DNA of 40,254 nt from a virus. The notes under the pieces are model-generated. The model made no database searches, was not told where the DNA came from, and saw nothing but the letters and a program-made list of their open reading frames with translations. The stretch spans positions 1-40,254 of the IMG/VR virus record IMGVR_UViG_3300045996_000418; one strand, written 5' to 3'. Both the position numbers and the translations under genes were made by a program. This document shows, piece after piece, positions 23,178 through 33,624 of the stretch (the first letter of the stretch is position 1; every line of letters begins with the position of its first letter).

Positions 23178-23328
23178 CACTTCCCCTTTCCATCAATTAA
23201 AACTGAGCAAATTCCGTTCCGCAAAAATATTTGACCCCGCGCCGATATTGGCTTCCAGGCCCATCAAGTTTACAGATTTGCGGAACTTTATCGCGCCTAC
23301 TGCCTTGATTTGATTGGATTGCGCCATG

Positions 23329-23391
23329 GACTTAAAATCCGCCGCTTACCCGAGAGGGGGCGTACCGGTTCGATTCCGGTCTCGGGCACCA
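23329..23391 (+). other. 3' part of tRNA-Leu(UAA): attachment core
   Basis: GGACTTAAAATCC is an anticodon arm with anticodon UAA. A variable-arm region follows, then a T-arm ACCGG-TTCGATT-CCGGT (23364-23380), acceptor strand CTCGGGC (23381-23387), A and CCA (23389-23391). The 5' acceptor strand GCCCGAG and the D-arm are missing upstream, so no complete tRNA is encoded. Integration here would restore the 3' end of a host tRNA-Leu gene. Confidence 0.85.
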
Positions 23392-23424: not shown

Positions 23425-23491
23425 GATTTCCTGTCAAAATCCATCATATCCAAGTTCCGCAAAATACAGCCAGTTCCGCAAATTATGTGGT

Positions 23492-30756: not shown

Positions 30757-31386
30757 TTAAACGTGATGCTCTAAATTGATTTGCTCGACCAACTCTTCGA
30801 GATACTTGTTCGCCGCTTCGACCTTTTGCTTGATCTTCGCTTCCAGCGCCTTATCCCGCGAGTAAGGGACGACCGTCACGCGCAGCGCGGGATTGATGTT
30901 CTCGACGTAGTGCAGCTCCGGGTCTTCGTAGCCGATCAGCTCATCCGGCGTATTGACCAGGCAGTAAGCAATCTCGAATTGGTCAACATCCCACAGCATC
31001 ATGTAAGCTCGGCCTTGCCACTCGTAATCTTTATCCATGCCGGCCGCAGCGGTGGCCGGGAAGGTTGGAATGGACCACGACGATTTAATATCGATGATCT
31101 TGCGACCAGTGAAAATGTCGCATTCGCCGGTGATCCATTCGTTATTGCGGCGCTCAGTGTTCTTCTTGTGCGACGTGAAAAAAACGGAGTTGTATAGATC
31201 GATTGAATCCTGCTCGACAATCTGACCCTTCGACATTTCCTTGCTCGAAACCGTCTTGTGATAGCTGTAGACGTATTCCTTCGCCAGTTCGGTGACGAAT
31301 GTCTTCGCTCCCACAGACAGCACCTCGTCTTTCGACTTCGGCTCTGTCATGATCTTGCCAAGCGAGCTGGCTCGAATCCTAATCAT
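30757..31386 (-). CDS. PD-(D/E)XK exonuclease, YqaJ/lambda-exo-like (209 aa)
   Basis: The nuclease core is visible: an N-terminal ASSLGKIM segment, KGQIVEQDSI (Glu58), ITGECDIF (Asp90), IIDIKSS (Asp99, Lys101) and WQGRAYMML with Gln124, the metal-binding and QxxxY-like motifs of phage recombination exonucleases. It would resect DNA ends 5'-3' for single-strand annealing or recombination. ATG at 31386; a longer upstream frame is a shadow. It overlaps the preceding gene by 8 bases and precedes SSB. Confidence 0.86.
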   Translation of the reverse strand: MIRIRASSLGKIMTEPKSKDEVLSVGAKTFVTELAKEYVYSYHKTVSSKEMSKGQIVEQDSIDLYNSVFFTSHKKNTERRNNEWITGECDIFTGRKIIDIKSSWSIPTFPATAAAGMDKDYEWQGRAYMMLWDVDQFEIAYCLVNTPDELIGYEDPELHYVENINPALRVTVVPYSRDKALEAKIKQKVEAANKYLEELVEQINLEHHV

Positions 31387-31867
31387 GTGCAGCCTCAAGC
31401 GCCTGGCTGACTTTTTCTTCCTGAGCTGGCGTAAGGAAGAAATTGGCCTGCAACTTCTCCAGCGAGTAGTCGCCCTTCTGGATCGATTCGATAGCCGCTT
31501 CAAGGCGCTTGTCGGAAATGTTCTGCTTGGCCGGCTCGGCAACGCTCGGCCTGATCCGTAGACACTCCACCAGTTCGCCGGCAAGTTTCGTTGTGCTGGC
31601 GTACAGAGTGATTCGCTTGCCGCGCCAGTCTTCGATATACGGCCCATACAGCTTGTGAATTGATTTCGAGTTCGTCACGTTGAGGATCAGCGGCTTTTGC
31701 CCTACAAGATGCGCAACAACACACTCTTCCTTTTTCCCGCCAGAGCCAGTCACGACCTCGTTCTGCACGTAATCAATCGTTACCGTCATGTCTTCGCCAT
31801 CCGGCATTGCATACGCGCCGATGTAATCGGGATTGATCAGTTGCTTCCAGTGCGTCTTGCTTGTCAT
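31379..31867 (-). CDS. recombination-module protein of unknown fold (162 aa)
   Basis: Starts THWKQLINPDYIGAYAMPDG and continues with a beta-rich domain (LTVTIDYVQNEVV-like, VTGSGGKKEECVVAHL, LILNVTNSKSIHKLYG, KRITLYAST), ending in a helical hairpin (IESIQKGDYSLEKLQANFF). I recall such proteins next to YqaJ-type exonucleases in many phages and take it to be an annealing or DNA-binding partner, but I do not know a named function. ATG chosen at 31867 after GGAGAAGG. Confidence 0.76.
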   Translation of the reverse strand: MTSKTHWKQLINPDYIGAYAMPDGEDMTVTIDYVQNEVVTGSGGKKEECVVAHLVGQKPLILNVTNSKSIHKLYGPYIEDWRGKRITLYASTTKLAGELVECLRIRPSVAEPAKQNISDKRLEAAIESIQKGDYSLEKLQANFFLTPAQEEKVSQALEAAHD

Positions 31868-31949
31868 GTCCTTCTCCACTTCGTTATTGTTCGAGCCACG
31901 GACCGCCACATCATCAAAATCCGCCCTGACCGGCAGGTTGGTATGCGTG

Positions 31950-32147: not shown

Positions 32148-32239
32148 AGAAGCCTCATCACAGAATCAGCAAGCCATTCGGAGCAGGCATACAGCAGCCA
32201 GATCGCAGCGAGGGCGGCGTATTCTTGGGCGCGGATCAT
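32144..32239 (-). CDS. tiny membrane-like protein (31 aa)
   Basis: 31-aa frame bounded by ATGA overlaps on both sides, which argues it is translated. It has one hydrophobic segment, EYAALAAIWLLYACSEWL, and a short basic-hydrophobic end. Function unknown. Confidence 0.58.
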   Translation of the reverse strand: MIRAQEYAALAAIWLLYACSEWLADSVMRLL

Positions 32240-32553
32240 GCCGCCACCGGGTCGAATGACAGCGCCAACAGGTTCTGGATCTGTCCTTCTATATGCGCAC
32301 ACTTCGCGGTCGCTTCGGCGCGGATGGCTTTAGCCTCTTCGCGCAACGCTTCGACCTTGTTGTCAACCATCTTGCGTTCATCCAAAAGGTGGACTGTGAG
32401 TTCAGCGTCGCCGACCAAAGTCCAGCCACAAGATTCCATGTTTGCGCTTGAGAGTGCCAGCGCCTCAATCCGCTCGCCGTTGAGCAATTCCTGCGGCGAG
32501 ATGCTGGAGTGCGGCGTAATCCATGCCCTCGTTTTTTCGGTTACTGTTTTCAT
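32236..32553 (-). CDS. helical early protein, first gene after the structured leader (105 aa)
   Basis: ATG at 32553 has a strong GGGAGGAATC site. N-terminus MKTVTEKTRAWITPHSSISP followed by a short beta region and a long coiled-coil helix (ERKMVDNKVEALREEAKAIR). No family recognised. It is the first gene after the 516-base non-coding leader, so its expression depends most directly on it. Confidence 0.78.
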   Translation of the reverse strand: MKTVTEKTRAWITPHSSISPQELLNGERIEALALSSANMESCGWTLVGDAELTVHLLDERKMVDNKVEALREEAKAIRAEATAKCAHIEGQIQNLLALSFDPVAA

Positions 32554-33069
32554 GATTCCTCCCTGTTGATTGGTTGTCAGTGACCGGGCTACCTTCCCCG
32601 CTACAATCTGCGCCGAACCCGCGAACGATGTTCTCTCCGGCGATCTATCGGCCCCACTCCGCAGCAGGGCAGTTCCAGTCATGCGGCCACCAACAAGTCA
32701 GGCGGCTGTTATCAACCATCGCTCGACCAGAGGTCGCAATCCCCGGTGTTACCTCGTCAGCGAAACGAGTTAGCGATCACCATCTGCATGGCCTGACTTG
32801 TTCCCCCTGCTTGCTGCTCCCGGCAAGGGGTTCGGGCTCACGCACATCTCAAAAAATCATCTAGATAAATCTCTGTATTTTTCGCGCCGCATTTCAGCGG
32901 GTCCGCACGAGTCTTGCGGAAAGACAATTCATTACATGGCGACCTCCGAAAATCATCCGGCCATTTCGGCGGTGGCCGTAACGCCTTCGAAATAGGCGTC
33001 GGTGATTAAGCGCACCGACAACGCTCAGGCCGCTAACGAAGGGCGCACTTAAGGGCCACTTCAGTGCAG
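32554..33069 (-). ncRNA. 516-base structured non-coding leader of the early operon
   Basis: No convincing gene on either strand. It contains a dense series of perfect stems (positions on the plus strand): 12-bp 32692-32703/32791-32802 enclosing a 6-bp stem (32718-32723/32772-32777) and two 5-bp hairpins (32724-32736 and 32753-32769); a hairpin 32805-32830; TCCGCA/TGCGGA 32902-32920; GGCCA/TGGCC, ACGCCT/AGGCGT and CGGTG/CACCG between about 32959 and 33020; and an AT-rich patch at 32849-32880. PL transcripts cross it. Function unknown: riboregulator, antitermination element or cis-acting leader. Confidence 0.5.
32895..32947 (-). other. possible leader peptide / AUG-stop minigene
   Basis: On the minus strand a strong GGAGG (32947-32943) stands five bases before ATG-TAA (32937-32932), a start followed at once by a stop. 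A second ATG at 32932 opens a 12-codon frame (MNCLSARLVRTR) that runs through the TCCGCA/TGCGGA hairpin. It could control the leader RNA by ribosome occupancy. Confidence 0.35.
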
Positions 33070-33288
33070 TCAATCTGCGGCCAGAACCTGATGAAACTGG
33101 CCAATCTCGCCCGTCGTGCTGCAGTCAGTCGGGGCCACGTTTTTGGTGGAACTCGGTTCGTTAATCACATTTCGCATTTGCTCCATGACGTTTGCCGATA
33201 CGACACCCGTTTTCTCGTAGTCGAGCGAGGCGGCGAGGCATATGTAATAGAGGGCGTGTAGGCGCTCTGCTGTGGCGATATTGTTCAT
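33070..33288 (-). CDS. small helical protein (72 aa)
   Basis: ATG at 33288 in an ATGA overlap with the previous gene. Helical with Cys and Tyr (TAERLHALYYICLAASLDYE), then a polar C-terminus. No family recognised. Second gene of the PL transcript, ending just before the structured leader. Confidence 0.7.
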   Translation of the reverse strand: MNNIATAERLHALYYICLAASLDYEKTGVVSANVMEQMRNVINEPSSTKNVAPTDCSTTGEIGQFHQVLAAD

Positions 33289-33544: not shown

Positions 33545-33573
33545 ATTATCGGAGAACCGATTTACGTTGTCAA
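33545..33573 (-). promoter_or_regulatory. leftward early promoter PL
   Basis: On the minus strand: TTGACA (33573-33568), 17-base spacer, GATAAT (33550-33545), 11 of 12 matches to sigma70 consensus. Start near 33538, about 35 bases before the first gene. Both operator copies nearby overlap its elements. Confidence 0.85.
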
Positions 33574-33586
33574 GCGGAATTCCGAT
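33548..33586. promoter_or_regulatory. left operators OL1 and OL2
   Basis: ATCGG-AGAA-CCGAT at 33548-33561 (overlaps spacer and -10) and AGCGG-AATT-CCGAT at 33573-33586 (just upstream of, and touching, the -35). Same 14-bp plan as the three sites at 34934-34990. The 15 bases from 33572 are the exact reverse complement of OR1 and its flank (ATCGGAATTCCGCTT). Confidence 0.85.
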
Positions 33587-33624
33587 ATTTAATCAAGAAA
33601 GTTTTGACTGAGCGCGATGGACGC

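Follow-up and report, generated by a model that had tools for sequence, protein, structure and literature searches.

Among the closest described systems is the put RNA of phage HK022, a pair of stem-loops of about 70 nt; one copy, putL, follows PL immediately, and a second one is found downstream of PR (PMC9378689). Temperate phages also encode small RNAs such as the C4 antisense RNA (RF01695) and isrK (RF01394); neither gave a match at any threshold in the DNA analyzed here, which is the entire 40,254-base viral record IMGVR_UViG_3300045996_000418 (hereafter, the window). Another structured RNA, RT-15 (RF03018), was found in three related phages, downstream of recombination genes (L015:9009-9198, L026:9063-9252, and L038:9200-9385), and was absent from the window.

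The window carries a gene set of the temperate type, comprising an integrase, a cI-like repressor, an Arc-like regulator, a RecE-type exonuclease, and an SSB. A gap between two genes of its leftward early (PL) operon is compared below with these systems and with the early operons of related phages.

Results

Layout of the Early Operon

The features discussed are collected in Table 1. The sigma-70-like promoter enclosed by an operator-like inverted repeat is, as read from its sequence, the natural PL of the window, and a terminator-like hairpin lies just upstream of it, at the end of the cI/Arc unit. Sequence related to this hairpin was also observed preceding the early genes in an Achromobacter prophage (L014/L070) and in other relatives. 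The two small genes that follow PL could not be assigned to any family in Pfam or PHROG. After them comes the gap, and the ATG of the next early gene is preceded by a ribosome site, GGAGG, at 32558-32562. Viral contigs yielded no relative for any of these three small flanking proteins, and the phrog_2479 protein had none in the genomes searched.

Two further regions of the window were recorded. A probable attP core at 23323-23391 matched the 3' portion of a tRNA-Leu gene, CCA included. Repeats of AGTTCCGCAAA on its flanks (23277-23288, 23452-23463, and 23472-23483, for example) resembled integrase arm sites. A second long stretch left blank by the gene caller, 1412-2085, was located ahead of the likely packaging genes and contained a terminator-like hairpin at about 1498-1520.

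Table 1. Features of the window and of the early operons of related phages, with their positions.
Feature	Position	Strand	Remarks
Intrinsic-terminator-like hairpin	33649-33629	minus	just upstream of PL, closing the cI/Arc unit
Predicted PL-like sigma-70 promoter	33573-33545	minus	TTGACA-17-GATAAT; 11/12 consensus matches; best minus-strand candidate
Operator-like inverted repeat	33547-33565 / 33569-33587		encloses PL; inverted-repeat search
Small gene 1 after PL	33509-33285	minus	74 aa; coding score 13.7
Small gene 2 after PL	33288-33070	minus	72 aa; weak coding score, 4.6
Non-coding gap	32554-33069	minus	516 bases; from the stop of 33070-33288(-) to the start at 32553(-)
Cloverleaf-like four-way junction	32690-32804	minus	115 nt; predicted fold
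P1, 5' arm	32791-32802	minus	perfect 12-bp closing stem; AACAAGUCAGGC
Small hairpin	32781-32790	minus	predicted; CAU(GCAG)AUG; adjoins P1 5' arm, D-arm position
Branched middle arm	32718-32777	minus	predicted; 6-bp stem and two hairpins; anticodon-arm or insert position
5-bp hairpin	32704-32717	minus	predicted; GGUUG(AUAA)CAGCC; 0 nt from P1 3' arm, T-arm position
P1, 3' arm	32692-32703	minus	GCCUGACUUGUU
Next early gene	32236-32553	minus	105 aa; phrog_2479, function unassigned; ATG at 32553
Long-stem module	L016:3335-3485		17-bp acceptor-like stem; tRNA-Leu-like D and T arms
Long-stem modules	L017:2793-2943; L020:2069-2209		common 18-bp stem; both side arms vary with compensation
Long-stem modules	L042:3528-3711; L043:3057-3198		16-bp stem, 11/16 pairs replaced on both sides; side-arm sequences common
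Cloverleaf-like module	L017:3385-3545		hairpin stacked on 3' arm
tRNA-like module	L022:10481-10600		tRNA by RF00005 (44 bits); 7-bp acceptor, D arm, T arm, encoded CCA
Element K	L014:4158-4289; L044:1720-1814; L055:4400-4534; L192:2495-2626		100+ others (L072-L195)

Coding Status of the Gap

Across the gap, each of the six frames scored negative in a 3-periodic Markov model trained on the long genes of the window itself, and no gene was placed there by a dynamic-programming gene caller. Hence, the gap is real and non-coding, as the first-pass annotation had stated when it singled out half a kilobase without a convincing gene. A short gene on either strand might have been overlooked, and open frames of 59-96 aa do exist on both, but every frame in the gap scored negative for coding, which makes this explanation very improbable. 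The gap was also located downstream of the predicted PL, as had been claimed. The word "leader" used for it did not hold, since it starts about 470 nt into the transcript, after the two small genes. No terminator-like site was found on its transcribed strand. A 21-nt match that recurred at about 32985-33005, seemingly a conserved hairpin or gene end, was rejected as a chance match to a TrkH coding sequence.

Structure of the Gap

The folding of the whole gap was compared with that of shuffled sequences, and the minus strand was clearly more structured (z -2.75, 0/100 shuffles) than the plus strand (z -1.13). When five pieces were folded separately, the excess was confined to 32690-32804, which is strongly folded (z -4.19, 0/200 shuffles, for a piece picked after looking); the other four, including those with the other hairpins listed on first pass, gave z values of +0.46, +0.23, -1.12, and -1.02. 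In sliding windows of 120 nt on the transcribed strand, the mean was -1.17 in the gap vs. -0.31 in coding DNA of the same operon. The earlier description of the gap as densely structured was not confirmed along its whole length: one domain stood out, and the remainder was ordinary. The smaller hairpins that it named can be read in the sequence, and the perfect 12-bp stem was found in this domain. Dinucleotide shuffling of the gap produced a perfect stem of at least 12 bp in 11 of 2000 trials (0.55%).

The domain was predicted to fold with an MFE of -47.9 kcal/mol, the MFE structure and the centroid being the same. In this predicted fold, P1 closes 87 nt and the three inner arms occupy the positions of the arms of a tRNA. 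When the domain was shuffled, 23 of 500 sequences likewise folded with three or more branches and a closing stem of 8 bp or longer, so the cloverleaf-like layout alone is weak evidence. The domain lies about 735 nt downstream of the promoter (some 730 nt into the transcript), and the start codon at 32553 follows its end by about 140 nt.

These data bear on two cis-acting explanations. The first, put forward in the first-pass annotation, is processive antitermination by an RNA like HK022 put, with which the polymerase would ignore the terminators of the early operon. The location in the PL operon is in keeping with it, as is the fact that the small early proteins examined matched no antiterminator family. 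Nevertheless, a single-sequence covariance model of the domain (R1) found one place in the window, with no copy on the PR side; putL follows PL immediately and the gap does not; a 115-nt four-way junction is not a pair of stem-loops; and the gap holds no terminator to overcome. Antitermination of this kind is thus quite improbable here. The second would be an mRNA element, such as an RNase processing site, a stabilizer, or a translation switch, which sets the expression of the gene at 32553. The gap stands directly upstream of that gene and its good ribosome site, and its 3' piece can form a long predicted stem near this site. However, that piece behaved like its shuffles (z -1.02), some 140 nt separate the domain from the start codon, and no riboswitch or leader family matched, all of which renders such an element unlikely.

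Searches for Homologs

Searches of phages, plasmids, and 399 genomes from the order of Paraburkholderia detected no real similarity to the DNA of the gap. Across 60 related phage loci, R1 recovered only the domain itself (next best match, E 0.84), and it had no match in the same 399 genomes. The exact pattern of the 12-bp stem was absent across viral contigs, and a pattern of the frame plus an insert yielded three matches in all viral contigs, every one within coding sequence, which were rejected as chance matches. Additionally, Rfam 15 returned nothing at the gathering score for the window, riboswitch and leader families included; at E values up to 10 the hits were solely eukaryotic snoRNA and miRNA models, far under the cut-off. 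No tRNA was found in the window by ARAGORN or by Rfam RF00005.

Long-Stem Modules in Relatives

Relatives were collected by anchoring on the window gene 31379-31873 (phrog_21613), which gave about 60 phage loci and also anchored two bacterial prophages, of Achromobacter and Paraburkholderia. Their early operons often contained long non-coding gaps, and 21 of these gaps clustered by short blocks shared in a mosaic manner. Such gaps, 29.6 kb in total, held 16 perfect stems of 11-18 bp that close 50-250 nt, a number that includes pairs of related modules and hence not only independent cases, compared with 1.35 in shuffles (approximately 12-fold); the same search in 163 kb of coding sequence gave 14.

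Many of these modules were predicted to fold in a cloverleaf-like manner, with 0 nt between a hairpin and the 3' stem arm, as in the window. Several followed a tRNA-like plan, in which an acceptor-like stem, a D-like arm, and an exchangeable insert are completed by a T-like arm stacked on the stem. Compensatory replacement was evident in pairs of modules: between L017:2793 and L020:2069 one side arm changed from CUACG/CGUAG to GCACG/CGUGC and the other from GCCAG/CUGGC to GGUGG/CCACC, and the L042 and L043 modules showed the reverse situation, with 11 of 16 stem pairs replaced and the side arms common. The closing stems of the listed modules from L016, L017, L020, L042, and L043 measured 13-18 bp, their shells differed, and some of them adjoined the element described below. 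In the module from L022, an insert replaces the anticodon arm, and ARAGORN makes no call.

Element K

A recurrent cassette, termed element K, was present in the early operon of 11 of the 59 relatives, on the sense strand in 11/11, and in more than 100 phage contigs overall. The pattern for its first hairpin (HP1) matched at least 120 times in viral contigs, and at least 112 copies with both hairpins and the closing stem were collected. The order is a closing stem of 7-9 bp, AA, HP1, an insert of 25-160 nt, the second hairpin (HP2), and, after 0 nt, the 3' arm of the stem. HP1 is a 4-bp hairpin, GCGC(AGGCUGAU)GCGC, whose constancy is partly imposed by the search pattern, and HP2 is a 5-bp hairpin, GCCGG(AGAUCAGCA)CCGGC. 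These dimensions are those of the acceptor, D arm, and T arm of tRNA, and the loops of the two side arms are mutually complementary (GCUGAU/AUCAGC).

The closing stem of K is supported by covariation. In 28 aligned copies, chosen for having the stem, two-sided changes occurred in five of the seven closing pairs, and the cells with such changes over all pairs numbered 42, vs. 10.9 in shuffles. When copies were selected on the two hairpins alone, all seven pairs were present in 84 of 94, while shuffled partners gave a mean of 22.6. The G-U pairs in this stem favor RNA over DNA. Furthermore, the inserts were swapped: at least 94 were distinct by their first 40 nt, identical inserts were found in different shells, and one was about 94% alike between the Achromobacter prophage and Escherichia phages Bas77-80, among others. 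NCCA followed the stem in 18 of 97 copies (background, 3%).

With regard to its distribution, one K sequence used as a query was present in 52 of 5426 genomes and was unannotated among the matches listed. In L014, K shortly follows sequence related to the PL region of the window; in two E. coli prophages (NZ_CP041919.1, near 2285472; NZ_CP061764.1, near 1953201) it lies between an antiterminator gene and a holin. Such cassettes, with their constant tRNA-like shell and exchangeable insert, are shared by phages of Escherichia, Klebsiella, Enterobacter, Pseudomonas, Achromobacter, and Burkholderia. No Rfam 15 family matched K, and no published description was found in a literature search that covered few subscription papers. 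Copies near phage tRNA genes were noted in L192, L094, and L108, and in L169, L152, L099, L146, and L044 the inserts or adjoining sequence resembled, by eye, D-arm or T-arm fragments of tRNA.

Comparison of the Window Domain With These Cassettes

The window domain showed the broad traits of the group, namely a perfect stem of at least 11 bp closing 50-250 nt (12 bp and 87 nt here) in a sense-strand gap of the early operon, and, in the predicted fold, a side hairpin that adjoins its 3' arm at 0 nt. The covariance model of K (R2), run with filters off, matched nothing in the gap at an E value better than about 1. Moreover, the side-arm loops of the domain are not complementary (GCAG vs. AUAA), and it lacks the elbow signature of the relatives, the GG/UUCRA loop pair. 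Because of this failure of the K model and the lack of loop complementarity and of a T-loop motif, the domain is at best cassette-like, and by analogy it would at best work like the cassettes of the relatives. Elsewhere in the window, K-model matches at 1266, 1490, and 2890 (E 0.014-0.027) were rejected, that at 1490 coinciding with the terminator-type hairpin mentioned above.

A serious rival explanation is that of chance structure or gene decay, according to which the gap is a spacer without function, left behind by gene loss or mosaic recombination, with a strong stem that arose by accident and no RNA role. In its favor, no search returned a homolog of the domain, only one of five pieces of the gap exceeded its shuffles, and other perfect stems of 11-12 bp exist in the window, some of them within genes. 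The z of -4.19 with none of 200 shuffles reaching it, the rarity of a stem of 12 bp or more (0.55% of shuffled gaps), and the existence of genuine co-varying RNAs at the equivalent place in relatives argue in the opposite direction. We consider a spacer of this kind a substantial possibility, although not the most probable reading.

Discussion

The reading that we prefer, to which a probability of roughly 0.45 can be given, is that the window domain is a functional non-coding RNA cassette of the general sort found in the relatives. The first-pass annotation had named a large phage ncRNA in the PL operon as one option; this broad idea gains from the one significantly structured domain and from the structured RNAs at the equivalent place in relatives, and the specific idea of antitermination is not supported. 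We infer that the domain is transcribed, processed, and functional, and that it would be one of the cassettes of this group.

Under the cassette reading, the gap would be a slot for a non-coding RNA in the PL operon, with the cloverleaf-like RNA of about 115 nt (32690-32804) as its active part. This RNA would be co-transcribed with the early genes from PL and probably excised as a stable small RNA, the long perfect closing stem and the stacked side arms providing a shell that may resist nucleases. The branched middle could then constitute a phage-specific payload that acts in trans, its target being an RNA or a protein of the host. As to the target, we can only speculate that the payload is a decoy for tRNA-directed host defenses, or that it acts by an antisense or protein-binding route; tRNA-directed defenses come first among the candidates, given that the shells imitate tRNA and that, in some phages, copies of K lie near phage tRNA genes.

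A wider and more tentative proposal, which may be correct but to which we would give less than even odds, is that these elements form a large undescribed class in phages, built of tRNA-like shells with elbow-like side arms, a covarying stem, and, where tRNA has its anticodon arm, an insert that can be exchanged. The window domain would be a diverged member of this class, whose elements would be natural tRNA scaffolds with payloads swapped among phages of unrelated hosts. If the gap is indeed a slot for RNA cassettes, unannotated gene-free stretches of early operons would be where phages keep their trans-acting RNAs. A constant shell with an exchangeable insert would also allow a direct experiment on which insert protects which phage, and against what.

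Regarding known systems, HK022 putL and putR are, like the window domain, structured RNAs in the early PL operon of a temperate phage, but put is present in two copies of about 70 nt and the window has a single-copy four-way junction some 730 nt into the transcript. With phage-encoded tRNAs and tRNA-like structures, including the tRNA scaffolds used in biotechnology, the domain shares a cloverleaf-like four-way junction; it differs from tRNA in having a branched middle instead of the anticodon arm, and in lacking the T-loop UUCRA and the CCA. Element K has a stem of 7-9 bp instead of 12 bp, and its sequence constants are missing from the domain. Nevertheless, K and the tRNA-like cassettes have in common with the window domain their place, strand, perfect closing stem, side arm at 0 nt, and overall size, together with a middle arm at the position of the insert.
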